A program made the translations under genes and the position numbers. DNA of 36,852 nt from a virus. This document shows positions 2,744-36,852 of this stretch, piece after piece; position 1 is the first letter of the stretch; every line of letters starts with the position of its first letter. The stretch is from IMG/VR virus record IMGVR_UViG_3300042303_000322, positions 1 to 36,852 of that record; one strand, 5' to 3'. The notes beneath the pieces were generated by a model. It was not told where the DNA came from. It was given only the letters and a program-made list of their open reading frames with translations, and did no database searches.

Positions 2744-3103
2744 CTCTAATCCTAATTTTTTTCTCTTCCAATTGCTTTTTGTTCCTTGTCCAAACATTGC
2801 ATCAATTCTAGGCTTTGATTTACTCCATGCTGGAATTGCTCCTACATACTCTATGTGATATGGGAAAACTAATCGAATTACTGCAGGAGATTGTTCAATA
2901 CTCTTCTTTACATTTGCTGAATATGTTGGATCTATTCTGTGAGTGTATTCTGAGATGTATACGTTAAAGCTATCTCCTAATTTATCTAGATAATCTTTTA
3001 CGGTTTGGTCATCTAATATACCGTCATTCTCTGCTAAAAATATTCCCAGTACTATTGTGAATATAAGCAGCAGTACTACTAAAACTACTATTAAAAATAC
3101 CAT
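2741..3103 (-). CDS. Hypothetical single-pass membrane protein, 120 aa
   Basis: Residues 2-23 are a strong hydrophobic span (VFLIVVLVVLLLIFTIVLGIF), followed by an acidic linker and a soluble domain with a basic C-terminus (KSNWKRKKLGLE). It probably has a membrane anchor with the bulk on one side. It lies 2 nt downstream of another membrane protein gene and one gene before the SPFH protein, so these may act together at the membrane. No family recognised. Confidence 0.65.
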   Translation of the reverse strand: MVFLIVVLVVLLLIFTIVLGIFLAENDGILDDQTVKDYLDKLGDSFNVYISEYTHRIDPTYSANVKKSIEQSPAVIRLVFPYHIEYVGAIPAWSKSKPRIDAMFGQGTKSNWKRKKLGLE

Positions 3104-3105
3104 AA

Positions 3106-3393
3106 CTATTCTTGTTTAACTTGTTTAACTTCTTCTTCTACTTCTTGCTCAGGCTCTTCTTGCTTAACTTCTTTACTCTCTAGATACTCCTTTGATAACT
3201 TACCCATGTACCCTCCTAAGTTCCATGCAAAGTACCCTATGGCTCCAATTGTTGATAGTGCTGCTAATACTCCAAATGTAAATGAAAGATTGCTTGGTTG
3301 ATTCATTAGATATGTTCCCACACCTATTAATTGGAATGATAACAACCATCCTATAAAAAATCCAATTGCTTTTAAAATTGTTTTTGTCTTCAT
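3106..3393 (-). CDS. Hypothetical two-TM membrane protein, 95 aa
   Basis: Two hydrophobic segments (about residues 10-30 and 38-60, the second containing FGVLAALSTIGAIGYFAWN) are followed by a highly charged Glu/Lys tail (VKQEEPEQEVEEEVKQ). It starts 1 nt after the preceding stop. The small two-helix membrane layout with a charged cytoplasmic tail resembles holins or membrane scaffolds, but the true lysis block is elsewhere in the window, so I do not call it a holin. Confidence 0.6.
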   Translation of the reverse strand: MKTKTILKAIGFFIGWLLSFQLIGVGTYLMNQPSNLSFTFGVLAALSTIGAIGYFAWNLGGYMGKLSKEYLESKEVKQEEPEQEVEEEVKQVKQE

Positions 3394-3394
3394 C

Positions 3395-3601
3395 TTATTT
3401 ACTATTTGATGTTGATTTGAATAATATATTGCAAAGGAATGTAAGTCCTAATGCTTGCCAAAATCCTATTGGATTGATTCCATCCACTGCTCCTACTAGA
3501 GCGTTATTCCAAAGCCACTGTGTTGGCCAAGCCAATAATACTGCTGTTAGTACTGCAACTCCTAAAGCTGCCATTACTGCTAATCCTACTTTTTCTACCA
3601 T
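3395..3601 (-). CDS. Small membrane protein, 68 aa, WPTQWLWN type
   Basis: An N-terminal hydrophobic span (AVMAALGVAVLTAVLLAWP), then WPTQWLWNNALVG, then a second hydrophobic stretch FWQALGLTFLCNILF and a short polar tail. The Trp-rich WP-x-LWN ... FWQALGL-x-x-LxxxLF pattern recurs in small proteins of Bacteroidetes phages, from memory; function unknown. Its start overlaps the upstream stop as TAATG. Confidence 0.65.
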   Translation of the reverse strand: MVEKVGLAVMAALGVAVLTAVLLAWPTQWLWNNALVGAVDGINPIGFWQALGLTFLCNILFKSTSNSK

Positions 3602-3840
3602 TATAATTCGTTTTCTGGTGTTCCTGTTAATGAATCTACTTCTGTGTATCTTGAATTGACTTGCTCTTTAAGAACTTCTCTTAAGTACTTTACATATTCT
3701 ACTCCTCCTACTCCTCTGATTGCTCTCTGAGGATCTTTATAAAGCTTATCGTGAGTCTTTCCATTCTTTTTAATTACTTGAATGTAATTTCCTTTTAAGT
3801 CTGCCATTAATTCCTTCGGTGTTTTTACTTTTCCTTCCAT
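3601..3840 (-). CDS. Hypothetical protein, 79 aa
   Basis: A soluble basic protein (MEGKVKTPKELMADLKGN, later GVGGVEYVKYLREVLKEQ). No signal, no transmembrane segment, no recognised motif. It lies 2 nt after the upstream gene and shares TAATG with the downstream membrane protein gene, so it is co-translated with the membrane-protein run. Confidence 0.55.
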   Translation of the reverse strand: MEGKVKTPKELMADLKGNYIQVIKKNGKTHDKLYKDPQRAIRGVGGVEYVKYLREVLKEQVNSRYTEVDSLTGTPENEL

Positions 3841-3842
3841 GT

Positions 3843-4082
3843 TTAGTTTATGTATATTAAATTTCCTTGTTGATCTTCTATCTTTGATACATCCATCTTC
3901 TTGTCCATATGCTCTAGAATAAATGCTCCATTCATTTGGAAGTACATATTGAAGGCTTGTTGAAATATTTCAAAGGGAGGTGTTACTCTATTCTTATCCT
4001 TATTCTCCAGGAAGTATTGGTAAAACCAAGCCAGATCATACTGGCCTGATTTTCTCATCTGTATATACTTTGCTCTATCCAT
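3843..4082 (-). CDS. Hypothetical protein, 79 aa
   Basis: A small helical protein rich in aromatics (MDRAKYIQMRKSGQYDLAWF, FEIFQQAFNMYFQMNG), likely an all-helical soluble fold. Its start overlaps the stop of the DUF932 gene by one base and it is transcribed with it. I do not recognise the family; a helper of the DUF932 protein is only a positional guess. Confidence 0.55.
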   Translation of the reverse strand: MDRAKYIQMRKSGQYDLAWFYQYFLENKDKNRVTPPFEIFQQAFNMYFQMNGAFILEHMDKKMDVSKIEDQQGNLIYIN

Positions 4083-6658: not shown

Positions 6659-7066
6659 CTATTCGTCGTCTTCGTCTTCAAGCTCTACATCTTCAACATC
6701 TTCTAGGTCTTCTAAGTCTTCTTCATCATCTAAGACTTCTAATTCACCTTCTAATGCTTTGTCTGTAGCTTCTGAGATTGCTCTACTGTCGTCAGACATT
6801 TCATCCTCATCAAAGTTTAAGATCTCTAATGGAACATTTCTAACTCCTCTAGAGGTATTCTCCAGCTCTTGAAGTCTTCTAGCTGTATCCTGGTCTAAGA
6901 TATCAAGTTCAGTGACTGTATAGTCTCCTTCCCCAACTACTCTAATACGTCCTACCTTAGGCTTTACATCTGAACATTCTATACAGAAATCGTATCCGTA
7001 ATTGTCCAATCTAAGTTTAGGCATATCATTCCTACACCTTGTACATTTAATTTGTTCTAAGCTCAT
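6659..7066 (-). CDS. DksA/TraR-type zinc finger protein with acidic tail
   Basis: 135 aa. The N-terminus has C-x2-C ... C-x2-C (CTRCRNDMP ... FCIECS) in the arrangement of the DksA/TraR zinc finger, without the DksA coiled-coil N-terminal half. The C-terminal 35 residues are almost all Asp/Glu (ending VEDVELEDEDDE). DksA-type fingers often bind RNA polymerase; an acidic tail could mimic DNA. That role is inference. It is the first gene after the promoter at 7093-7123 and has the GTT-ATG start context. Confidence 0.65.
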   Translation of the reverse strand: MSLEQIKCTRCRNDMPKLRLDNYGYDFCIECSDVKPKVGRIRVVGEGDYTVTELDILDQDTARRLQELENTSRGVRNVPLEILNFDEDEMSDDSRAISEATDKALEGELEVLDDEEDLEDLEDVEDVELEDEDDE

Positions 7067-7092
7067 AACCGTTTTAATTTATTATTTATACC

Positions 7093-7123
7093 TAAATATA
7101 CGAACAATAGTCTTATCTAGCAA
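7093..7123 (-). promoter_or_regulatory. Promoter TTG-N20-TATATTTA (third of subgroup)
   Basis: On the minus strand TTG (7123-7121), 20 nt, TATATTTA (7100-7093). It shares TAGTTGCTAGA and TTCGTATATTTAGGTATA with the 4937 and 5862 promoters, but the spacer middle differs and lacks the inverted repeat. Confidence 0.8.
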
Positions 7124-7135
7124 CTATTTTCTTAT

Positions 7136-7534
7136 TTATTTTAAGCTGGATATAACATTCCATACTTGATCAGGAGTTTCAAAGTCAACAGTAATCATTT
7201 CCTTTCCGTCTGTAATATCAATCTTTCCATCCCAATCTTCAATCTCCGGAACTTTATATAGGTAGTATTGTATTAAAGCAAATTGTTCTTTTGTAAAATG
7301 AACTTTAAATAGATTCTCTATAATCTGTAAGAACTTCTCTTCATACATAGACATATCCATTCCAATCTCTTCCTCCATAAAGTCTCTTCTATCTTCTATC
7401 TCTCTTAAAAGGATTATGCTTTCGATAAAAAGTTTCTTTTCCATTGTATCTCTAGCCATATCTCTTTCTTTTATCCTAATATTACCCTTTAAGTAATTGT
7501 TTAGCGTTTTCCTTAATTCCTTCTTGAGCTCCAT
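7136..7534 (-). CDS. Hypothetical helical protein, 132 aa
   Basis: An all-helical, charged protein (MELKKELRKTLNNYLKGN, then DRRDFMEEEIGMDMSMYEEK) with a beta-like C-terminal end. From this ATG it overlaps the upstream gene by 53 nt, long for this window. An alternative ATG at 7459 (MARDTMEKKLF, 107 aa), preceded by AAAGAGAT, would remove the overlap. I keep the longer form because its N-terminal helix looks natural, with low certainty. No family recognised. Confidence 0.55.
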   Translation of the reverse strand: MELKKELRKTLNNYLKGNIRIKERDMARDTMEKKLFIESIILLREIEDRRDFMEEEIGMDMSMYEEKFLQIIENLFKVHFTKEQFALIQYYLYKVPEIEDWDGKIDITDGKEMITVDFETPDQVWNVISSLK

Positions 7535-7694
7535 ACGTATAGTTTTTTACTTCGAAAATTGTTAGAAAATCATTTGTTGATAATTGTTTTGACAATGAGA
7601 AGAATTTTATTGCTTCTTCTCTACTTGCTGCGTGTAGAACTCCTACTGGTTCTTGTGTAGGGTTATTCTTTGAATAAAAACAAAACTGTGGCAT
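7482..7694 (-). CDS. Hypothetical protein, 70 aa
   Basis: Starts MPQFCFYSKNNPTQEPVGVL and continues HAASREEAIKFFSLSKQLS. The pattern of a strand, a short loop and 'AxSREEAIxFF' is typical of small alpha/beta proteins that phages encode in number, of unknown function. It lies 11 nt after the preceding gene. Confidence 0.55.
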   Translation of the reverse strand: MPQFCFYSKNNPTQEPVGVLHAASREEAIKFFSLSKQLSTNDFLTIFEVKNYTYGAQEGIKENAKQLLKG

Positions 7695-7705
7695 ATCTTT
7701 TTTAT

Positions 7706-8056
7706 TTAGTCGTTACTTGTTTGTGCTGCTTGATTTAGAGCATTGATAATAATCTTATCTAGATATTCGATATAGATAAAGAAGCCTACAATTGTCTTAT
7801 CCTTTAACTCTCTGTCTCTCTCTACTGCTAACCCTAGAGGTGCTAATCCTTGATTTAATTTAGCTCCTAAGTCCATAGCGATATCGTCTTGTTGTTGTTT
7901 AGACATACCTGAGAATGTTGTTGGAAGGAATTGTACTTTAATTCCTTTCTTATTTGGATCTTCATTTACATCTATCTTAAGGACAAATTTATTTCCTTTG
8001 AAGTTTACTTTGGTAACTTCTGATAGCATCTCTTTTATTTCGTTGATTAAGCTCAT
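7706..8056 (-). CDS. Hypothetical phage protein, 116 aa
   Basis: A mixed alpha/beta soluble protein: MSLINEIKEMLSEVTKVNFK, a strand pair around KFVLKIDVNEDPNKKGIKVQF, and a C-terminal IYIEYLDKIIINALNQAAQ. No catalytic motif is visible. It directly follows the glycosyltransferase run in the same direction and is probably read through from it, as I see no terminator or promoter in the 27-nt gap. Confidence 0.55.
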   Translation of the reverse strand: MSLINEIKEMLSEVTKVNFKGNKFVLKIDVNEDPNKKGIKVQFLPTTFSGMSKQQQDDIAMDLGAKLNQGLAPLGLAVERDRELKDKTIVGFFIYIEYLDKIIINALNQAAQTSND

Positions 8057-8083
8057 ATGTTTTTGTTATAAATAGTTTATTTT

Positions 8084-9361
8084 CTAGTATACCTTATATA
8101 GATGTTCTGGTTTTATATCAGGATTGTTTACTTTAAGTTTAGTCTCTATAATATTCTCTTTGTTCTTTATTGAGAAAGTAAATCCTTCGAATTCATAATC
8201 ACCTGGTTCTGCTTCGTGTATTATGTGTTGTAACTTACTTAGTACATTATTAAATGTATTTTGGTTAATACTACTAAGGTTAAATGAAACTACCACATCT
8301 CCTTCTGGTTCTCCTATACAAACTCTATCCTCTAATCTCTCTATGTTGCACATGTACTTGTACTCCTCCCACTGTTCTTGAGAGTACTTGTAAAGTATAT
8401 TAGCATATAGATGTTCATTCTCATTTATAAACTCGTTATATAGTTTTTTAGAAGTTATGTAGTTTTTTATAAAAAACATCTCAACGTTTTTAAATAACTC
8501 TAAGTTACCTATATCTATATCTATATTAATTTCTGAGACTATATTATAGTAGTACGGTGTTGGATGTCCATGGCTAAATTCTCCCCACTTTCTAAATATT
8601 CTAGTAAGTTCTACCTTATCTGCTCTTGCTTGGAGTTGTAACTTTTCCTGTGCCTTTGTATTACTTGGCTCATGCCAGCCCGGTCCTCTACTAGAAGTAC
8701 AAGTAAAATGGTATACCAGTGCTTCCCATGTTTGAACAATCTCTACTCCTGAAAGTATAAACCTATTTAAAATATCAGAGTCATCTCTTGACCGTCTAAA
8801 GGTGTTGTCTTGCCCTCCTATAGTGTTCCAAATCTCTCTATATAAAGTAAATGGTGCAAAATAGTAACTTGTTGTTTTATCTTCTCTACATATGTCACAG
8901 TAGTTTAAAAACCCCTCATAATCAAACTCAGAGGGAGTTAGTCCAAAGTTCACAGTATGCTTCTCAGGACCTGGTCCATGTAGTGGTGGTTCAATTCTAG
9001 TGCTAGATAGTATCGTATTAGGTTTAATATGCTTTAAGAGATACTCATCATAGTTTCTAGAAACAACCATATCAGACTGTAGGTAAGAAACTATTTCATG
9101 AGAAGCAAATTTAAACATTTCATTTATATTCCTAATAGGGCCATAACATACTGGGAGTATGTTTTTAAGTATTTTTAGATTCTTAAACTCTAACTTTTGA
9201 GTAGTCAGCCATTCGAAGGTTTTTTGATTATCAGAATCAACAAACACAATTACCTCGTGGTGGTCGTACTTAAGATTTTCTTTTAACGACTTCATTAGTA
9301 GTTTTAAATAAGGTAGTTCATCTACTGCTGTATTGATGCAAAAACTAATTGAATTTTCCAT
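8084..9361 (-). CDS. Family 2 glycosyltransferase with long C-terminal extension
   Basis: 425 aa. The N-terminal GT-A fold spans about 1-240: FCINTAVDELPYLKLLMKSL, HHEVIVFVDSDNQKTFEWL, then the acceptor/metal region IVSYLQSDMVVSRNYDEYLL, where the usual DxD reads QSDM. It continues with FAPFTLYREIWNTIGGQDN and a RRSRDDSDILNR loop matching the ED/D-x-D catalytic-base region of GT2 enzymes. The C-terminal 180 residues are helical then beta and unrecognised. It is the last enzyme of the sugar island, probably adding a sugar to a glycan. Donor and acceptor are not predictable. The single Asp in place of DxD is unusual but seen in GT2 relatives. Confidence 0.75.
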   Translation of the reverse strand: MENSISFCINTAVDELPYLKLLMKSLKENLKYDHHEVIVFVDSDNQKTFEWLTTQKLEFKNLKILKNILPVCYGPIRNINEMFKFASHEIVSYLQSDMVVSRNYDEYLLKHIKPNTILSSTRIEPPLHGPGPEKHTVNFGLTPSEFDYEGFLNYCDICREDKTTSYYFAPFTLYREIWNTIGGQDNTFRRSRDDSDILNRFILSGVEIVQTWEALVYHFTCTSSRGPGWHEPSNTKAQEKLQLQARADKVELTRIFRKWGEFSHGHPTPYYYNIVSEINIDIDIGNLELFKNVEMFFIKNYITSKKLYNEFINENEHLYANILYKYSQEQWEEYKYMCNIERLEDRVCIGEPEGDVVVSFNLSSINQNTFNNVLSKLQHIIHEAEPGDYEFEGFTFSIKNKENIIETKLKVNNPDIKPEHLYKVY

Positions 9362-9379
9362 TGTATGTATATATGTAAC

Positions 9380-10021
9380 CTATTGTGTTATGTAAATTCT
9401 ATCTGCTTGGTACGATTCTACATGTTTGTATCCTAATTCAACTAAAAGAGTTTCAACACTATCTGACGTAGCTTCATACCTATTTAACCAGTTTTCACAG
9501 AACTCTATACATAGTACAGGTTTATATTTCTTAATAGTCTCTACTGCACCCAGTAGTGCATTGAGTTCATACCCTTCTATGTCTAGTTGAATTAAGTCAC
9601 ATGCCTGTAGGTTTAATTTGTCGATAACAATAGTAGGAGTAAACCCTACTCCACTAACATGTACTCCCCCTATGTCTATTCCCTCTCCTATACCTCTTTG
9701 TAGATGTTGTACAGCTACTGGTGTACTTTCTTTTCCTAAGCAACATTGCATCTTAATAACACTTGGTGCTGTAACATTCTGATTCAAGCAATAAAAGTTT
9801 ATTGGATCTGGTTCAAATGTATAGATGTTGTTAAAGTAGGGAACAAAGGTACTTAGAATGAATCCACAATTACCACCTGCTTGTATCATTACATCATTCT
9901 TCACTACATAGGGAAGTATGTATTGAGCTAGTTCCTTTTGTTTTATTTGACCTTGCCAACTTCTCTCATCCTTCTTAGGCCAAATCCAGCCTCCTTCTTT
10001 TACTACAACTTCGTTTTTCAT
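9380..10021 (-). CDS. FkbM-family SAM-dependent methyltransferase
   Basis: 213 aa. SAM-binding motif I is VMIQAGGNCGFILSTFV (about 44-60), a variant of DxGAxxG. Motif II is YTFEPDPINFYCLNQN, and the FkbM-specific DLIQLDIEGYELNALLGA follows at about 143-160, then CIEF. FkbM enzymes O-methylate sugars or polyketides, so here it most likely caps a sugar hydroxyl in the glycan made by neighbouring genes. It overlaps the upstream SDR gene by 4 nt. Confidence 0.85.
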   Translation of the reverse strand: MKNEVVVKEGGWIWPKKDERSWQGQIKQKELAQYILPYVVKNDVMIQAGGNCGFILSTFVPYFNNIYTFEPDPINFYCLNQNVTAPSVIKMQCCLGKESTPVAVQHLQRGIGEGIDIGGVHVSGVGFTPTIVIDKLNLQACDLIQLDIEGYELNALLGAVETIKKYKPVLCIEFCENWLNRYEATSDSVETLLVELGYKHVESYQADRIYITQ

Positions 10022-10929
10022 TTTCTTACTTTATAATATGTTATTGTTTTAACTAATCCTTCATTTAAAGATATCTGAGTTGGAATATTTGCAACAGCAT
10101 CAATCTTTCGTCTGTCCCCACATACATAAGAGTATGTAGAGGTTCTTTTTAGATTAGCACTAAATTCAATAGTACTACTACTCTCAATTTGTTTATGAAC
10201 TTGCTCAACTATATCTCTTATCTTGTATTGTTTTCCTGAGCATATGTTGTACACTCCTGTATGTTTTGTTAATATAAGAAAATAAATTGAATTAACAAAA
10301 TCATCTATATAAATATAATCTACAGTAGAAGTACACTCATCAAGTATTACTGCTTCATTCCTTAAGAACTTCTTAATTATACTAGGAAGAAGTCTTGTGC
10401 TTACATCTCCTGGTCCGTAAACGTAGCAGGGCCTTATCCATACCCATTCTATACTGTGTTGGTTGCATATCATTTCACTATACTTCTTAAAAGTATACTT
10501 TGATAGTCCATATAGGTTTGTAGGAACTTCTTGGACTGTTTCACTTACTGGATTGAACATCTCTCCATACTCTGCAAAACTTCCAAAACCTACAAACTTA
10601 GGCTTCTTCTTGAGCTTACTTAGTAGTTGTAGTAGAGAGATACTTGGATCTACATTTTCATAAAACTGATCCATACTATTAGTATCTGCGTAACTATTTC
10701 CTCCACTCCATCCACAATGTATTACTATGTCTGGTGAAAATGTCTCTATTTTCTTCTTAAACATAGGTAGTGAATTAGTACTACTGTAGTCAAATAAAAC
10801 TTGAGGAAGTATGTCCTCTATGTTATTTGTATTGTTTGAAAATAAGTAGACACTATGTCCTTCCTTTAACAGCTTTCTAACAATATTAGATCCTAAGAAT
10901 CCATTCCCTCCTGTAATTAATATGTTCAT
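10018..10929 (-). CDS. NAD(P)-dependent SDR epimerase/reductase of NDP-sugars
   Basis: 303 aa extended SDR. The N-terminal Rossmann motif is TGGNGFLGSNIV (TGxxGxxG); the catalytic site has a serine in GFGSFAEYG and the Y-x3-K pair in NLYGLSKYTFKKYS (about 140-150); then WIRPCYVYGPGD, and a substrate-domain YIYIDDFVNSI. This layout fits reductases finishing dideoxy- or branched sugars (abequose synthase RfbJ, or YerF in yersiniose synthesis). Beside a YerE-like ThDP enzyme and an RfbH-type dehydrase, it is the best candidate for the last reduction step. The exact substrate is inferred. Confidence 0.8.
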   Translation of the reverse strand: MNILITGGNGFLGSNIVRKLLKEGHSVYLFSNNTNNIEDILPQVLFDYSSTNSLPMFKKKIETFSPDIVIHCGWSGGNSYADTNSMDQFYENVDPSISLLQLLSKLKKKPKFVGFGSFAEYGEMFNPVSETVQEVPTNLYGLSKYTFKKYSEMICNQHSIEWVWIRPCYVYGPGDVSTRLLPSIIKKFLRNEAVILDECTSTVDYIYIDDFVNSIYFLILTKHTGVYNICSGKQYKIRDIVEQVHKQIESSSTIEFSANLKRTSTYSYVCGDRRKIDAVANIPTQISLNEGLVKTITYYKVRK

Positions 10930-27193: not shown

Positions 27194-29142
<1,949 letters not shown>

Positions 29143-31557: not shown

Positions 31558-31588
31558 TAAAGATAAGAAAAGAGTTGCGATTAAACAA
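31558..31588 (-). promoter_or_regulatory. Promoter TTG-N20-TATCTTTA of polA, fused to terminator
   Basis: On the minus strand TTG (31588-31586), 20 nt, TATCTTTA (31565-31558). The box ends 18 nt before the ATG at 31539. The hairpin of the upstream operon terminator occupies the -33 box and the spacer. Confidence 0.8.
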
Positions 31589-31595
31589 CTCTTTT
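31568..31595 (-). terminator. Rho-independent terminator of the dpdA/queF operon
   Basis: A perfect 10-bp stem AAAAGAGTTG/CAACTCTTTT (31568-31577 with 31586-31595) and an 8-nt loop. On the minus strand it is followed by TTTTCTTATC, the T-tract and the next promoter's box. Confidence 0.88.
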
Positions 31596-31598
31596 GTA

Positions 31599-31880
31599 TT
31601 AAAATTCCCCGTAAAGATCATAAGTTTTTGGAGGTGGTGGTATTACTGCTTCTGGCTCTGCCCACTCTATTGCCATCAAAGTTCCTCTCAAAGGCTCCAA
31701 TCGATAACCTTCTTTGTGTCCGGTTTTTTTCATGTAAGCTGACAAAGTCTCAACTAAACCTTCTATGATCTCTCCAGAAGGTTTATGATTATCATCTACT
31801 AGTCTCCATCTATCTCCTGGAGCTTCTCTTTTTGCAATTACTCTGAATCGCATTTCAGTTATCTGCCTACCTTCTGACAT
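31599..31880 (-). CDS. Hypothetical protein, 93 aa, end of the dpd operon
   Basis: Starts MSEGRQITEMRFRVIAKREA, then a Leu/Glu-rich helical middle, and a proline-rich end (AVIPPPPKTYDLYGEF). No recognised motif; not QueD (no CxxxHxH) and not QueE or QueC. The start overlaps the queF stop as TAATG, and the strong terminator follows 3 nt after the stop, so it is the last gene of the modification operon. A helper role for the DNA modification is a positional guess. Confidence 0.6.
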   Translation of the reverse strand: MSEGRQITEMRFRVIAKREAPGDRWRLVDDNHKPSGEIIEGLVETLSAYMKKTGHKEGYRLEPLRGTLMAIEWAEPEAVIPPPPKTYDLYGEF

Positions 31881-32806
31881 TATTGACGTAATGTTTTAGC
31901 CATTCTACAAGTAATGTCTGTAAAGAATCCTGGTATTAGTTTCTTATGTGAAGCTCTAATTGGATTAATATCTAATCCTCCTCTACGAGTGTAAAGACAA
32001 GCTACCATTAATTCTTCTGGATTGTAAGCTTCTTTTAAGTGCATGTAGATCATTTCACAAATCTCTTCATGGAAGTGACTTACTTGTCTATGACTTACAA
32101 TATATTTTGCTAGTGATTGTAGATTAGGAACAACTCCTGCTTTAGGCTTGATGTGAATAAATACATCACCCCAGTCTGGTTGATTTGTTACTCTACAATT
32201 TGATCTTAAAAGATTTGATTGTACTTTTATTTCTCCTATTTCAACATCCTCATCTACTTCTTCTGTTTCCAATTGTGTAGCGTCTGAATGGTAAGAAGTA
32301 AATTCAATTGCATTTAGATCTACTAAAGCATCTAGTGGTGCATATCCTTTGAAGGCATAGCTTGGAGAATGCTCTGAGGTAAACATCTCTACCTGTACTT
32401 TTGTTTGTAGTAAGTCAGATAAGTCTTTCTTTACTCTTTGTTTTAGTAACTTGATACATTCATGATCTGTTTCTCCCAATTGAGTCATATTGAATGAATT
32501 CAAATACAATTTAATTGATTTAGACTCTACGTGAAGTTTTGAATCTGCTGGATACCAAATCTTTAACATTCCAACAACTGGAAGTCCTTTTGTAGTAATT
32601 GCAGATACTTCGTATGCATTCCATACATCTCCTCCCACGAATGGTAAACTGTTATCATCAATTCCATACGCTTCTCTATTCAAGTAACGTGGAATTTCTA
32701 CCAATAGGCTTGGATCATAAGTATCGCTATAACCTGCTCCACCTACTTGTCCTAGATGCTTTCCTGCAATCTTTACAACTTCTGCTTGATTTAATTCTTG
32801 TGTCAT
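31880..32806 (-). CDS. queF: NADPH-dependent 7-cyano-7-deazaguanine (preQ0) reductase QueF
   Basis: 308 aa, the long (type II) form with two tunnelling-fold halves. The first half has VESKSIKLYLNSFNMTQ with the E-S motif (Glu94/Ser95). The second has the thioimide-forming Cys204 in LLRSNCRVTNQPDWGDVFI (Asp211 acid/base partner), FHEEIC (His246, Glu247) and YTRRGGLDINP. All residues needed for preQ0 binding and reduction to preQ1 are visible. With FolE and DpdA it supplies preQ1 for DNA rather than, or as well as, queuosine tRNA. Confidence 0.94.
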   Translation of the reverse strand: MTQELNQAEVVKIAGKHLGQVGGAGYSDTYDPSLLVEIPRYLNREAYGIDDNSLPFVGGDVWNAYEVSAITTKGLPVVGMLKIWYPADSKLHVESKSIKLYLNSFNMTQLGETDHECIKLLKQRVKKDLSDLLQTKVQVEMFTSEHSPSYAFKGYAPLDALVDLNAIEFTSYHSDATQLETEEVDEDVEIGEIKVQSNLLRSNCRVTNQPDWGDVFIHIKPKAGVVPNLQSLAKYIVSHRQVSHFHEEICEMIYMHLKEAYNPEELMVACLYTRRGGLDINPIRASHKKLIPGFFTDITCRMAKTLRQ

Positions 32807-32807
32807 A

Positions 32808-33332
32808 TTATTTTATGTAGTTTAATATTTGTTCAACTCTTTGATTAGGACTTCCTGTTACTGTTAAATAATCTCCTCCAGCAAATTTAATTGCTTTTAA
32901 GTTAATTTCAAACTGCTTATCAATTGCCTCTCTCCATTCTTCGTTTACACTTCTTACTCCATCGTCTACTGATGCAAATTCGATAGGGAAGTAAATAAAA
33001 TGTGTATACTGATGCCTAACTCTTACCCAAGTATCTAATATGTAATCATATGCGCTAGTAGATAACTTATCCATATAAGTAGAGTATACTACCAAATCCA
33101 AATAACATCTATCTAAGATTACATCCTTAGGAGCTAATAGAGCTTCTAAATGGAAAGAAGAAATAGCAAGCTGTGTTTCAGAAGTTCCTGCTTCATTAAT
33201 AGGAAATCCAAATTTACCAACCGTTCTTGTTGATTCATTTATGAAATCATACTCAGGTAATTTACTTTTAAGTAATTCATATACCGTAGTCTTACCTACT
33301 GATGATGCTCCTACTAATGCTATTCTTTTCAT
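32808..33332 (-). CDS. P-loop kinase, NadR/AAA_28-like
   Basis: The ATG at 33332 (MKRIALVGASSVGKTTVYEL) is chosen because it lies 2 nt after the upstream stop and has the GTT-ATG context; the longer form overlaps that gene. 174 aa. Walker A GASSVGKTT is at residues 8-16; a DRCYLDLVVYS segment carries the catalytic Asp-Arg typical of nucleoside kinases; the last third has a lid-like R/N-rich helix. The AAA_28 (NadR-type) family holds nicotinamide-riboside and deoxynucleotide kinases. In this operon a nucleotide kinase or an NAD-related enzyme is possible; the substrate is not visible. Confidence 0.7.
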   Translation of the reverse strand: MKRIALVGASSVGKTTVYELLKSKLPEYDFINESTRTVGKFGFPINEAGTSETQLAISSFHLEALLAPKDVILDRCYLDLVVYSTYMDKLSTSAYDYILDTWVRVRHQYTHFIYFPIEFASVDDGVRSVNEEWREAIDKQFEINLKAIKFAGGDYLTVTGSPNQRVEQILNYIK

Positions 33333-33334
33333 AA

Positions 33335-33862
33335 CTAATTTTTTAAGAAGTCTACCCAAAGACTTACTGATATACTATGTAAGATATGAAATAATTCTCC
33401 TATTTCCAACCCTTTTATAGAAACTTTTCTACTTCGAAGTATCTCTCCTTCATCAACTCCTTCTGTTACTCTATGAATAACACATCCGGAAGATTCTAAT
33501 CCTAAGTCAAAAGCTTTTTGTTGTGGATCTTTTCCTTTTAGTTCTGGATGTTCAGTTATAAGTCCTGGATGTCCATTATAGATTTCAAACCTATTACAGA
33601 TATCCGGAGGCATAACTCTTAACCATCCATGAAGAGTTACTAAAGGTTCTTTATAGTGACCTAATATTAGTCCTAATTCTTCTTCTGAAGGTTTATTATC
33701 TACGAAGATTAAATGCTTGTTCTCTAAAGCCGGATGAATCTTTCTAAGATGTTCTGGTCTTTCGTTTGTTACTATCATATCAGGCCATCTTCCTAGAAGC
33801 TTTGATACTTCTACGATCTCTGATCCTGTTTGACTAAAAAATGCTATCCAAGGTCTAATCAT
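33335..33862 (-). CDS. dpdN: Formyltransferase, DpdN-like (dPreQ1 formylation candidate)
   Basis: 175 aa, a single PurN/Fmt-like formyl_trans_N domain. Active-site elements: VTLHGWLRVMPPDI (76-88), YNGHPGLI with the catalytic Asn96/His98 (Asn-x-His-Pro), SSGCVIHRVTEGVDEGEIL with the third catalytic Asp137, all in PurN order (N106, H108, D144 in E. coli). Standing between dpdA and queF, it fits DpdN, described (from memory) as the enzyme that formylates preQ1 in phage DNA to 7-(formylamino)methyl-7-deazaguanine. A PurN or other small-molecule formyltransferase remains possible. The start overlaps the end of the 58-aa gene by 8 nt. Confidence 0.75.
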   Translation of the reverse strand: MIRPWIAFFSQTGSEIVEVSKLLGRWPDMIVTNERPEHLRKIHPALENKHLIFVDNKPSEEELGLILGHYKEPLVTLHGWLRVMPPDICNRFEIYNGHPGLITEHPELKGKDPQQKAFDLGLESSGCVIHRVTEGVDEGEILRSRKVSIKGLEIGELFHILHSISVSLWVDFLKN

Positions 33863-34031
33863 TTACTCTTTCTAATATTTCTGATTCTTCTATTACGTGA
33901 AACTTTCCTTCTGATCTAACACTGTAAAGTACTCTTTCTCTCATTTTAAAATGTCCGAATATCTGTACTTCTAGTATTTCATTATCACGATTAATATCAA
34001 CTTTTTGTCCTACTTTATACTTTGCTTCCAT
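33855..34031 (-). CDS. Small protein of the dpd operon, 58 aa
   Basis: Read directly from the minus strand: MEAKYKVGQKVDINRDNEIL, then EVQIFGHFKMRERVLYSVRS and EGKFHVIEESEILERVND. The pattern 'KYKVGQKVDI ... VLYSVRSEGKFHVI' suggests an SH3-like small beta barrel. It overlaps dpdA by 17 nt and the formyltransferase gene by 8 nt, so it is translationally coupled to both. It is a plausible accessory or specificity factor for DpdA or DpdN, which is inference. No similar protein is recognised. Confidence 0.7.
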   Translation of the reverse strand: MEAKYKVGQKVDINRDNEILEVQIFGHFKMRERVLYSVRSEGKFHVIEESEILERVND

Positions 34032-34809
34032 TTGTAAACCATTTGAACTTATTGATATTATATAGTATTGGATTAATATCTTCTACCTGATGATTTATTA
34101 ATTCAAATAACTTCTGAGATTCTTTTGACCATAGTCCGTCTTCTCTGTATTCAATTCCTTTTATTCCGTGAACAACTGGATTGGAAGTATCTAAAGAGTA
34201 TATCCATTTATAATCTGAATAGAAAGCAAACTCTTGAGGTAATCCGCATCCTAATAAGTGATGCTTCTTATTCTCATTTATTATTCCATCCTTTAATAAA
34301 TCTCCTAATAGTTTTACTCTACCCATCATCCAGGAAACATATTTGTTTGGATGCGGAACTGATTTAACATAGTAAGAATAGTCAAATGAAATTGCAATCA
34401 TATCAACTTCAGCAATCTTATCCATGTATTCGTAACAAGATTTAATCTGCTGATAGGTTGTTCCTTGAACAACTCCTATCTTCTTTCCTGGAAGATTTTT
34501 ATATTTGTTTATCCAATTTGCCATTTGTGAGCAAGTCTTCTTTGCATCCTCTAAAGCATCAGGAACTATATACCAATCTGGTTGTAACTCTAATACCCAT
34601 CCTGCAAACTTCTCTGCATCAAAAGCTTCTTCTAATTCAAAGATAGAATTATCTAGAATAATCTCTCTTCCTTTTTCCTTTGCCTCTTGAAATTGCTGTA
34701 GGTATTCAGGATCTTCTTCAAATAAATGTACAAGTGCATAGTCATAGTCAGTTACACTCTGTACCTGTTTGAATATGCTTTTTGGTGATTCGTGAGCTAT
34801 CTTAATCAT
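34015..34809 (-). CDS. dpdA: DNA guanine transglycosylase DpdA (TGT-like)
   Basis: 264 aa TIM-barrel enzyme of the tRNA-guanine transglycosylase superfamily. ILDNSIFELEE (51-61) holds the general-base Asp53 (DSGGFQ in bacterial TGT). Then VPDALEDA, IGVVQGTTYQQI (111-122), HHLLGCGLP (183-191, the LxGxG base-recognition loop), and SLDTSNPV (205-212) with the nucleophile candidate Asp207 (D280 in TGT). Being much shorter than TGT and lacking its zinc-binding C-terminus fits phage DpdA enzymes that exchange guanine in DNA for preQ0/preQ1-type bases after replication. Its operon partners are FolE (upstream operon), QueF and a formyltransferase. Subfamily (DpdA1/2/3) not decided. Confidence 0.85.
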   Translation of the reverse strand: MIKIAHESPKSIFKQVQSVTDYDYALVHLFEEDPEYLQQFQEAKEKGREIILDNSIFELEEAFDAEKFAGWVLELQPDWYIVPDALEDAKKTCSQMANWINKYKNLPGKKIGVVQGTTYQQIKSCYEYMDKIAEVDMIAISFDYSYYVKSVPHPNKYVSWMMGRVKLLGDLLKDGIINENKKHHLLGCGLPQEFAFYSDYKWIYSLDTSNPVVHGIKGIEYREDGLWSKESQKLFELINHQVEDINPILYNINKFKWFTNGSKV

Positions 34810-34999
34810 TTTCTTCTGGTATTTCTAGTTCTTCTGTCAATCCTCCGAGTTGTTCCTGTAGTAAAGATAAAGTGTCCTGTAATTGTTCATCGATTGATAA
34901 CTCCACTGCCTTGTAAGCTTCCGATAAAGGTATCATATCTGTTCCTAAAGTCTCAATAAAGACTTTATGCTTCTCTAAATGGTCTAATGCTTTTTGCAT
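34802..34999 (-). CDS. Hypothetical acidic helical protein, 65 aa
   Basis: A helical acidic protein: MQKALDHLEKHKVFIETLGT, then ELSIDEQLQDTLSLLQEQLG and a Glu-rich tail. Its stop overlaps the dpdA start by 8 nt, and it begins 1 nt after the MazG-like gene's stop. Function unknown. Confidence 0.6.
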   Translation of the reverse strand: MQKALDHLEKHKVFIETLGTDMIPLSEAYKAVELSIDEQLQDTLSLLQEQLGGLTEELEIPEEND

Positions 35000-35000
35000 A

Positions 35001-35525
35001 CTACTCTCCTGTTAGTTGTTTTAAATATGACTTCTGAAGTTCTTTATCTGTAAAGAATTGTTTTAAGTCCGGACGGAAATAGTTAACGTTCTTCATTACT
35101 TTTCTATCTCTTGTTCTATAGACGATATAATAGTCTCCAACTTTTTCATGATGACATGCTTCATTCTGTTCGAGCGCTCTCTTAATGACAGTCTGTAAAG
35201 CTTCGTCTTCTGTTTTGCAAGCTTTAGACATATTTGATGCCTGTACTTCTTGATATGCTGGCCATATCTTATCCTTAAGGCCATGTAACATAGTACCGTT
35301 CCCAAGGGAAACATAAGCAATATCGCACAAAGCATCCAAAACCTCAACGATGTCTCCTCTTTCGCAAGCTTCTCTATATTCTTCCAATTCCTCAAGGATG
35401 AAATTGTATACAAACTCCCATTCTTTTCTTTCGGGGATAGTTGGTTCATAGTTGTTAGGTTTGCCCATTACGGCATTAAACTCTTCTACCTCATCAATAA
35501 AAGGTACTTTTGGATCTGTTATCAT
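35001..35525 (-). CDS. MazG-like nucleotide pyrophosphohydrolase (PRA-PH superfamily)
   Basis: 174 aa. The all-alpha NTP-PPase signature is EELEEYREACERGDIVEVLD followed by ALCDIAYV (about 46-72): E-E-x-x-E on one helix and E-x-x-D-A-x-x-D on the next, binding Mg2+. The following PAYQEVQASNMSKACKTEDE resembles the 'F-x-E-V-x-x-S-N-M-S-K' of phosphoribosyl-ATP-pyrophosphohydrolase-like phage enzymes. The family hydrolyses nucleoside triphosphates; in phages it may clear (p)ppGpp, dUTP-like or damaged nucleotides. First gene after the fused terminator/promoter at 35543-35573. Confidence 0.82.
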   Translation of the reverse strand: MITDPKVPFIDEVEEFNAVMGKPNNYEPTIPERKEWEFVYNFILEELEEYREACERGDIVEVLDALCDIAYVSLGNGTMLHGLKDKIWPAYQEVQASNMSKACKTEDEALQTVIKRALEQNEACHHEKVGDYYIVYRTRDRKVMKNVNYFRPDLKQFFTDKELQKSYLKQLTGE

Positions 35526-35542
35526 AACTTTTTACTTTTTTA

Positions 35543-35573
35543 TTAATATAAGAAATTGGACCCGAAGGTCCAA
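35543..35573 (-). promoter_or_regulatory. Promoter TTG-N20-TATATTAA of the dpdA/queF operon
   Basis: On the minus strand TTG (35573-35571), 20 nt, TATATTAA (35550-35543), 17 nt before the ATG at 35525. The spacer contains the hairpin of the adjacent terminator. Confidence 0.78.
35556..35573 (-). terminator. Terminator-like hairpin with UUCG loop after DUF4494 gene
   Basis: A perfect 7-bp stem TTGGACC/GGTCCAA closed on the minus strand by a C(TTCG)G tetraloop, one of the most stable loops in RNA. The T-tract after it is short (TTTCTT), so termination may be partial. It lies 4 nt after the DUF4494 stop. Confidence 0.7.
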
Positions 35574-35577
35574 CTTT

Positions 35578-35775
35578 TTATTCCAATACTTTTAATATTT
35601 TAGATTGATTAACTCCTACTACTGTGAAGTTAGACTCTCCTTCGAACTCTACATAGATTTTAGCTTCAGCTTCTGTTGCTGAAATTGCATCTACTAAATA
35701 AAGTTCTCTTACTTTCTGAATACGACCTCTGTCGTTTTCGTGCTCCAATTGCACTGTTACTTGCCAATAATCCAT
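35578..35775 (-). CDS. DUF4494 family protein, 65 aa
   Basis: The central motif RELYLVDAISATEAEAKIYV matches 'ExYLVDAxSxTEAEARI' of DUF4494, a small Bacteroidetes/phage family without known function. A C-terminal strand (FTVVGVNQSKI) fits too. It lies 11 nt after folE and is its operon partner. Presence of this family is a further pointer to a Bacteroidetes host. Confidence 0.78.
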   Translation of the reverse strand: MDYWQVTVQLEHENDRGRIQKVRELYLVDAISATEAEAKIYVEFEGESNFTVVGVNQSKILKVLE

Positions 35776-35786
35776 TTTGTTTGATT

Positions 35787-36497
35787 TTAGTTATTTTTTC
35801 CGAGTTTAATATTTGAATAGAATTCTGCTCTTGCTGAATCTTCTTCTAAGAAACATCCTGTTAGCTTTGCTGTTTGCATTGAAGCTCCTTGATGTTTAAT
35901 TCCTCTACATGATACGCAGTTATGTGTTGCTGAGATTGCTACTGCTACTCCTAGATTCCCTTCACAGATTTTATCTACTGCATTATGAATTGCAACTGTT
36001 AACTGTTCTTGGATTGCTCCACGTCTAGCAAACTGCTCTACAATTCTATTTAGTTTTGAAAGCCCAACTACCTTTCCATCTTTAGAGGGAATATAAGCTA
36101 TGCTTACCTCTCCGGAGATTGTTTGGTGGTGATGTGAACACATTGAAGTAACTGGTATGTTACTCTCTTGAACTATTCCATCATATCCATCTGAAGGAAA
36201 TGCTGTGATTTGAGTAAGTGGTGCATACCTTCCTGCCCATAGATCATTTACATAAGCCTTTGCAACTCTCTTTGGAGTATCAGATGAATTTGGATCATTC
36301 TTCCAATCAGTACCTAAAGCTGTTAAGAAGTTACCAAATGCTTCTGCTGCATCTTCGATTATGTGTTGCTTTTCTACTTCAGTTAGTCTTGCCTCTGGAC
36401 CATCTGTTAATTGTTTTTTAGCTAATTGAGATGAAATACCATTAGCGAATCCGGCTTGTACTAATTCTGTACCGTCGATAAATTTTTTATTTGACAT
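35787..36497 (-). CDS. folE: GTP cyclohydrolase I FolE
   Basis: 236 aa. The zinc/catalytic site is visible: VTSMCSHHHQTISGEV (Cys120, His122/123), the substrate segment VVGLSKLNRIVEQFARR (144-159), QEQLTVAIHNAV, and the second zinc cysteine Cys194 in ATHNCVSCRGIKHQG. The fold region SDTPKRVAKAYV is the usual 'DTPxRVAK'. It turns GTP into dihydroneopterin triphosphate, the first step of preQ0 (and folate) synthesis. Here, with queF and dpdA two operons on, it likely feeds DNA modification. The N-terminus up to about residue 40 is less conserved. Confidence 0.95.
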   Translation of the reverse strand: MSNKKFIDGTELVQAGFANGISSQLAKKQLTDGPEARLTEVEKQHIIEDAAEAFGNFLTALGTDWKNDPNSSDTPKRVAKAYVNDLWAGRYAPLTQITAFPSDGYDGIVQESNIPVTSMCSHHHQTISGEVSIAYIPSKDGKVVGLSKLNRIVEQFARRGAIQEQLTVAIHNAVDKICEGNLGVAVAISATHNCVSCRGIKHQGASMQTAKLTGCFLEEDSARAEFYSNIKLGKNN

Positions 36498-36568: not shown

Positions 36569-36852
36569 CTATTTTTTCAAATAATCTTGAATAGTTTCTG
36601 AATCATTTCTTTCCCAAGGGTAAACAATCCACTCTGTTCCTACTTCTTTTGAATAGAAGTCTGGGGTAAATATTGCTGTTGGTTTGTAATGAAGCGTTGC
36701 AGTATACATTCCAATAGTCTTTTTTAACGTCTCTCCTGTATCGCAAATGTCATCTACAACAAGAGTATCTTTATTTATTCTACTAACGAAAGGTATATGG
36801 AGCTTGTGGGAGATCATTACTGCTGGTATTAATCCTCCTCTTTGAATACCTG
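36569..36852 (-). CDS. Type I phosphoribosyltransferase (xanthine/hypoxanthine-type), 5' end outside window
   Basis: The frame stays open to the right edge: from there it reads GIQRGGLIPAVMISHKLHIP, then the PRPP-binding loop TLVVDDICDTGETLKKTIG with the Asp-Asp pair, and ends WIVYPWERNDSETIQDYLKK. The R-G-G-L substrate loop and the W-x-V-x-P-W-E end are typical of bacterial Gpt-like xanthine/guanine phosphoribosyltransferases. It salvages purine bases with PRPP. Residues before GIQRGG are off the window. It is the last gene before the folE promoter. Confidence 0.85.
   Translation of the reverse strand, partial: GIQRGGLIPAVMISHKLHIPFVSRINKDTLVVDDICDTGETLKKTIGMYTATLHYKPTAIFTPDFYSKEVGTEWIVYPWERNDSETIQDYLKK

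Follow-up and report, generated by a model that had tools for sequence, protein, structure and literature searches.

A phage gene cassette that probably makes and installs N-formylated preQ1 in DNA

A formylated derivative of preQ1 (7-aminomethyl-7-deazaguanine), 7-(formylamino)methyl-7-deazaguanine or fdPreQ1, is reportedly a base of phage DNA; in the same 2023 work by Cui et al., DpdN is said to be the predicted formyltransferase and DpdA3 a DpdA subfamily with complete replacement. A cassette of the type examined here has probably been described already, in principle, for a close relative. We studied such a cassette in a viral record of 36,852 nucleotides, IMG/VR record IMGVR_UViG_3300042303_000322, analysed over its full length (the window), and we think it likely that its folE, dpdA, dpdN and queF genes belong to a set that makes fdPreQ1 and installs it in phage DNA.

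The phages that Hutinet et al. (2019; PMC6884629) describe likewise carry a preQ0 pathway together with a DpdA, and preQ1 in DNA (dPreQ1) occurs in Streptococcus phage Dp-1, which encodes QueF-L. They differ in having a DpdA of the DpdA or DpdA2 type, and the word stem "formyl" is absent from the part of the article's text that we consulted; no paper on phage DpdN was among the literature matches listed, which are part of larger sets. In the Campylobacter phages CPt10 and CP220 (Firehammervirus), a DpdA homologue (41-42% identity) stands ahead of a kinase of the window's type, but the complete genome of CPt10 holds neither QueF nor DpdN.

Far closer is Flavobacterium phage vB_FspM_immuto_2-6A (hereafter immuto_2-6A; NC_055915; Immutovirus, 160 kb; host Flavobacterium sp. 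LMO8), which has folE, a DUF4494 gene, a MazG-like gene, an open reading frame (ORF), dpdA, an ORF, dpdN, a kinase gene, queF and a further ORF in the same order, with DpdA 87% and DpdN 91% identical to those of the window; for window positions 12000-36852, nucleotide identity is ~85% in the aligned segments, which make up 66% of the query. The immuto_2-6A record names DpdA and QueF; in it the MazG-like protein appears as a hydrolase, while phosphoribosylglycinamide formyltransferase and thymidylate kinase are the names given to the formyltransferase and the kinase. It is nevertheless a different phage, in which a hypothetical gene separates polA from the gene that follows queF. The window represents part of the genome of a relative of Immutovirus (a Flavobacterium-type phage), and its last 11,515 bases are 99.66% identical to three contigs (loci L035, L036 and L054).

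Enzymes of the predicted pathway

We infer the following reactions, in this sequence, and the following gain for the phage. FolE, QueD, QueE and QueC would convert GTP to preQ0, and QueF would reduce preQ0 to preQ1. DpdA would use two catalytic aspartates to exchange guanine in DNA for the 7-deazaguanine, and DpdN would place a formyl group, presumably from 10-formyl-tetrahydrofolate, on the preQ1 primary amine, whether the base is free or already within DNA, giving fdPreQ1. DNA modified in this way should be hidden from host restriction.

An earlier reading of the window from its sequence alone (the sequence-only reading) had noted that queD, queE and queC are missing and had supposed that they lie beyond its ends or come from the host. 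The former holds. A locus with 99.64% identity to the window over 10.8 kb (L005) carries queD and queE, and it lies with L054 on one 150,740-base contig, which also has a QueC match. In immuto_2-6A, queE and queD lie directly upstream of folE, and queC follows ~10.5 kb beyond queD. Thus, the genes are missing because the window ends and not because the phage depends on its host, and the preQ0 pathway is phage-encoded. Between queE and folE of immuto_2-6A there is a phosphoribosyltransferase gene, and such a gene adjoins queE and folE in many related cassettes; salvage of the guanine released by DpdA could be its role, which we offer as an idea only.

QueF comprises the QueF_N and QueF modules of the bimodular enzyme, and its best structure match is the solved bimodular QueF 3bp1 (4e-75). 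The residues that the sequence-only reading had picked out, Cys204, Asp211 and His246, are present and invariant in 22/22 aligned relatives, alongside Glu247, Arg275 and a complete reductase motif, ESKSIKLY, of the form E-S-K-S-x-K-L-Y that we take to bind NADPH. Five aligned relatives from loci without dpdN keep the QueF residues, bar conservative changes at two motif positions.

In DpdN, the predicted triad of Asn96, His98 and Asp137 was likewise confirmed, being invariant in 30/30 aligned homologues. The best matches of the DpdN profile among solved structures are PurN proteins (4.1e-16), but the score against the NCBIfam PurN equivalog TIGR00639 is 51.5 bits, far below the cut-off of 150.1. 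Further, a G-S-N loop of two aligned PurN structures, which presumably binds the phosphate of glycinamide ribonucleotide, is G-x-Glu in DpdN (30/30). DpdN belongs to the formyltransferase superfamily without being PurN by the NCBIfam cut-off, and its gene is linked with queF and dpdA, in keeping with the claim of the sequence-only reading.

The AlphaFold2 model of DpdA (predicted local distance difference test, pLDDT, 94.8) is a single 264-aa domain. Both structure searches returned tRNA-guanine transglycosylase (TGT) for all 50 matches listed, Foldseek with a best E of 1.8e-8 and VIA-align with Z 17.4-18.0, root-mean-square deviations of 2.9-3.4 and 227-235 residues aligned, including complexes with preQ0 and preQ1; the DpdA assignment withstood structure prediction, with no unrelated TIM-barrel family among the matches listed. 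Asp53 and Asp207, which the sequence-only reading had named, are invariant in 30/30 aligned homologues, as are Gln115-Gly116 and an LLG turn; Asp53 and Asp207 would be the two catalytic aspartates of TGT, and Gln115-Gly116 part of its VQG base-binding motif. PHROGs alone among the sequence libraries searched placed DpdA, chiefly in phrog_19058 (4.3e-55). A comparison of the window DpdA profile with the DpdA of phage 9g by hhalign gave a negligible match, and DpdA2 was likewise missed from the 9g DpdA by PSI-BLAST, according to the part of Hutinet et al. (2019; PMC6884629) that we consulted. Our assignment draws on fold, residues, gene context and the immuto_2-6A record; a TGT sequence-profile match is not required of phage DpdA subfamilies. 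By its model, DpdA has a TGT fold. The DpdA proteins of CPt10 and Youna2, used as queries, brought in few or no new viral contigs.

Spread and layout of the cassette

The cassette recurs far outside Immutovirus. For instance, a contig from a Rhodobacteraceae bin (L265) has the order queE, phosphoribosyltransferase, queD, folE, dpdA, dpdN, kinase, queF, queC. Cluster counts come from a sample biased to near relatives, for which two underlying scans kept the best 80 matches. We kept 134 loci whose DpdA is 230 aa or longer and whose sequence continues for 3.5 kb or more beyond dpdA (L159 excluded). Clustering these at 90% identity gave 69 dpdA clusters, in which dpdN and queF are found together in 54, queF only in 4, dpdN only in 1 and neither in 10 (L168, with queF elsewhere on its contig, is counted as having it). 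Among clusters with dpdN, all of them chosen for having dpdA, 54/55 have queF on the contig. No QueF was found in the records behind the 10 clusters without either gene, only some of which are complete genomes and one of which is 4.4 kb. QueF and DpdN are both absent from five complete phage genomes that encode a DpdA relative. This pattern is as expected of an enzyme that acts on preQ1. At the 34 loci with more distant DpdN proteins (L056-L089, mostly 36-57% identity), dpdA is present in 31, queF in 32 and the kinase in 19; L088 is among the five exceptions for dpdA or queF, and the other four stand at the ends of their loci. At another locus (L154:6572-8228), two adjacent dpdA-like genes stand ahead of dpdN and queF.

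Several points weigh against the formylated base. For DpdA, Pfam gave no significant match to TGT and a profile search of PDB sequences (E 10) found no TGT; its assignment as a TGT rests on the fold and on an hhalign alignment with E. coli TGT of weak register (probability 8%), which sets Asp207 on the Asp of FDCVMPTR and VVQG on IIQG. The window QueF scores 264.9 bits, under the NCBIfam TIGR03138 equivalog cut-off of 293.45; the claim is thus one of membership in the QueF family, by domains and residues. Clusters formed at 90% identity remain related to one another, so that the Fisher values, including that for the co-occurrence of dpdN and queF (p 3e-8), overstate independence. One dpdN locus, L088, lacks queF within its 40-kb fragment.

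Two other readings were considered. Were QueF an amidotransferase (QueF-L), the base would be archaeosine rather than preQ1, and phage QueF and QueF-L are indeed hard to separate by sequence, as the consulted part of Hutinet et al. (2019; PMC6884629) states. However, the same source gives dPreQ1, not archaeosine (dG+), for phage Dp-1, and the complete E-S-K-S-x-K-L-Y motif, the match to bimodular QueF and the fit of an amine-directed formyltransferase to preQ1 all speak for a reductase, and we consider an archaeosine base very improbable. The formyltransferase might instead be a PurN serving phage purine synthesis, in DNA that carries plain dPreQ1: DpdN falls within the PurN superfamily, PurN proteins are its best structure matches, and cyanophage PurN-like genes appear among its distant matches. 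Against this stand the score far under the equivalog cut-off, the invariant Glu in place of the Asn of the G-S-N loop, and the company of dpdA and queF at the 34 distant loci. We consider a PurN role very unlikely, and a formyltransferase that acts on preQ1 the better account of the cassette.

The ORFs for FolE, a DpdA-like protein, a formyltransferase and QueF claimed in the sequence-only reading were all recovered on the minus strand, with their families supported (Table 1; the GTP_cyclohydroI, Formyl_trans_N, QueF_N and QueF matches each exceed the Pfam cut-off). That gene set stood, but the reading had overlooked a kinase gene between dpdN and queF. In minus-strand order the right quarter of the window runs from a truncated phosphoribosyltransferase gene through folE, a DUF4494 gene, a MazG-like gene, a 65-aa ORF, dpdA, a 58-aa ORF, dpdN, the kinase gene, queF and a 93-aa ORF, and then to polA, groES and groEL. 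The run of genes that starts with the MazG-like gene and closes with the 93-aa ORF is tightly packed, each gene overlapping the next or almost touching it. A terminator-like hairpin (consensus match only) lies on either side, at 35576-35553 and directly after the 93-aa ORF; together the two would likely delimit one unit of these eight genes, which agrees with the coupled operon of dpdA, dpdN and queF proposed earlier, with folE and the DUF4494 gene upstream of the first hairpin. The MazG-like gene is present in Immutovirus-like loci and rare among distant cassettes. No tRNA genes were found in the window, and an Rfam scan of it gave no match at gathering score, so that there is no preQ1 riboswitch by that test. 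GroEL and GroES are phage-encoded at 27194-29142, next to polA, an arrangement as in immuto_2-6A.

Table 1. Features of the cassette region, in window coordinates
Feature	Position	Strand	Evidence
Phosphoribosyltransferase, cut by window end	36569..36850	-	Pribosyltran 1.9e-6
folE, GTP cyclohydrolase I, predicted first step towards preQ0	35787..36497	-	Pfam GTP_cyclohydroI 3.2e-45
MazG-like nucleotide pyrophosphohydrolase, first gene of likely transcription unit	35001..35525	-	Pfam PRA-PH 9.2e-10; phrog_671 1e-28
Small 65-aa ORF upstream of dpdA, overlapping dpdA	34802..34999	-	Homologues in 54/90 sequences scanned (including window and immuto_2-6A)
dpdA, predicted short-type DNA-guanine transglycosylase, 264 aa	34015..34809	-	TGT fold, invariant residues
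58-aa ORF overlapping dpdA and dpdN ends	33855..34031	-	ORF; 50-aa gene at same immuto_2-6A position
dpdN, predicted preQ1 N-formyltransferase, 175 aa	33335..33862	-	Formyl_trans_N 7e-13
P-loop kinase, NadR/deoxynucleoside kinase (dNK)/thymidylate kinase (TMK) type	32808..33359	-	AAA_28 4.6e-13; phrog_2107
queF, predicted bimodular NADPH-dependent preQ0 reductase giving preQ1, 308 aa	31880..32806	-	QueF_N 8.9e-34, QueF 6.5e-21
93-aa ORF after queF, no assigned function	31599..31880	-	Homologues in 37/90 sequences scanned (including window and immuto_2-6A)
Terminator-like hairpin closing unit	31568..31595	-	Consensus match only

Loci without dpdN

A second set of 81 clusters was built from 185 loci that have queF no further than 7 kb from dpdA (L026, whose contig ends before queF, excluded). 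dpdN is missing from five of these clusters, and four of the five have a match to a GNAT-type acyltransferase in the cassette. No DpdN remnant was found in the five loci, nor any DpdN in the whole records of L033, L122, L155, L159, L167, L026 and L032, by a search that detected DpdN in 5/5 viral records known to carry it.

The acyltransferase-like genes differ from locus to locus. In L033, a 508-aa protein between dpdA and the kinase (6918-8444) has an FkbH domain above cut-off (TIGR01686) and a GNAT match (2.8e-11); a gene for a glyoxalase-family protein stands beside it, with a NUMOD3-motif gene adjacent. The same FkbH-GNAT protein and glyoxalase-family neighbour occur in L264, L032 (3327-4850) and L026 (5528-7054), all without dpdN. 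Between L026 and L033 the 2.35-kb FkbH-GNAT/glyoxalase block is 97% identical and the dpdA stretch 80%, which suggests that the block travels as one piece. Outside the stretch aligned with L033, L026 also has a 336-aa protein, radical SAM-like by eye (2841-3851), before a 68-aa ORF and dpdA. L159 has a GNAT protein (1.1e-5) directly upstream of dpdA, and its nearest relative, L166 (DpdA 80% identical), has dpdN. In L122 a weak GNAT match (0.0023) forms a fusion with the kinase. In L155 a weak amidoligase match (0.02; 9009-10055) separates dpdA from the kinase, and a GNAT match, also weak (0.003), falls between the kinase and queF. L167 has neither a GNAT nor an amidoligase match. The GNAT genes lie within the cassette, yet do not always occupy the exact position of dpdN.

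Four loci from GTDB, which are in neither cluster count, divide evenly: L265 and L268 have dpdN, and L266 and L267 lack it. The DpdA of L266 is 85% identical to that of the window and 73% to that of L155, and L266 and L155 share an amidoligase-like protein (79% identical; match 0.0021, below cut-off, at 8980-9978 between dpdA and the kinase) and a GNAT protein (48% identical; 2e-8, above the Pfam cut-off), encoded before queF as in L155. This homology supports the weak GNAT match of L155, and L266 again shows the amidoligase-like and GNAT set on a different backbone. In L267 (3.8 kb, its contig starting inside the dpdA ORF), no GNAT was seen by eye, the Pfam scan there covering the kinase and QueF.

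For comparison, we scanned 106 unannotated ORFs of clusters with dpdN, taking one representative locus per cluster in 59/76 clusters (the other 17 have no such ORFs), and found no GNAT among the Pfam families listed (25 of 38), which include single-ORF families down to E 0.0088. Kinase ORFs were checked for GNAT separately, over 27 aligned members and with 25 of 32 families listed. The association of GNAT matches with the lack of dpdN, tested after the pattern was seen, has p 3e-6, or p 0.003 when only L033 and L159 (GNAT above Pfam cut-offs) are kept.

It is nearly as likely as not that dpdN is one filling of an interchangeable N-acylation slot and that relatives without dpdN cap the preQ1 amine with other acyl groups, giving undescribed bases. 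The groups themselves are guesses: the FkbH-GNAT protein (L032, L033, L026) would add a glyceryl-like group, the amidoligase-like and GNAT proteins (L155, L266) an amino acid or acyl group, and the small or kinase-fused GNAT (L159, L122) an acetyl-like group. If unrelated enzymes have taken the place of one N-acyltransferase, this would support amine capping at the dpdN step, and it predicts new bases. GNAT enzymes have been predicted as phage base modifiers before (Iyer et al. 2013, as cited in the part of PMC8056088 consulted); there the base is unspecified, whereas here GNAT-type genes occur in preQ1 cassettes without dpdN. Other ORFs in the slot include six with matches to staphylococcal nuclease, six to the cupin/mannose-6-phosphate isomerase family and two to the vitamin uptake transporter family PF02592, which we take to include the preQ0 transporter YhhQ.

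The kinase beside dpdA and the reach of the cassette

The window kinase, for which the ATG at 33332 is the likelier start, gave a model with pLDDT 89.3 that resembles NadR (Z 18.1), deoxycytidine kinase (dCK; Z up to 16.8) and TMK (Z 15.9). The name thymidylate kinase, as in the immuto_2-6A record, was set aside: the match to Pfam Thymidylate_kin is 16.6 bits against a cut-off of 27, and NadR, dCK and TMK structures all score Z 15.5-18, which leaves the broad kinase group. A kinase of this kind lies within 8.5 kb of dpdA in 52/69 clusters, those of Campylobacter phages included. The L032 kinase has only 29% identity to that of the window. In L099, a deoxynucleoside monophosphate (dNMP) kinase (PF21448, 5876-6442), presumably of the T4 gp1 type, directly follows a divergent dpdA; L177 and L178 (8843-9346) have homologues of it at the same place, and no QueF match was found in the records of L099 and L178. 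The kinase may serve guanine salvage, nucleotide supply or a DpdA route at the level of nucleotides.

Under this last route, the short DpdA would swap guanine for preQ1 on deoxyguanosine monophosphate (dGMP), the kinase would phosphorylate the product and the phage polymerase would incorporate it; the dGMP could perhaps come from dGTP by way of the MazG-like protein, and complete replacement of G could follow. The frequency of the AAA_28 kinase near dpdA, Campylobacter phages CPt10 and CC_R7 included, would fit such a route, as would the dNMP kinases of L099, L177 and L178, the single 264-aa domain of the DpdA model, and a weakly dNK-like P-loop gene beside the short dpdA of BSTP12. However, no modified nucleotide phosphate was reportedly found in the Campylobacter phage study of Crippen in 2019, and the consulted part of a review has DpdA acting on the DNA polymer (PMC12707154). 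Further, homologues of the kinase occur in 89 Streptomyces phage records, whereas the 26 records that match DpdA include none from a Streptomyces phage; one dpdA branch (L179-L197) has no such kinase in its loci, the neighbour there being deaminase-like by eye; and the kinase is absent from seven dpdN/queF clusters, a whole-record search of five contigs without it yielding one partial match of 29 positions only. We judge the nucleotide route unlikely, and exchange of guanine within DNA the more plausible course. All the same, a conserved kinase beside dpdA makes the substrate of this small DpdA, DNA or nucleotides, a testable question.

Further study would be best spent on the kinase and the slot swap, and the swapped loci without dpdN make specific, testable predictions of new DNA bases. 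If the formylation reading is true, a step encoded by the phage caps the positive amine of preQ1; if the slot is also real, a series of N-acyl-7-aminomethyl-7-deazaguanine DNA bases would arise from swapping one or two genes. Such a swap would alter the chemical face of the whole genome, outrunning restriction enzymes fitted to one modification.

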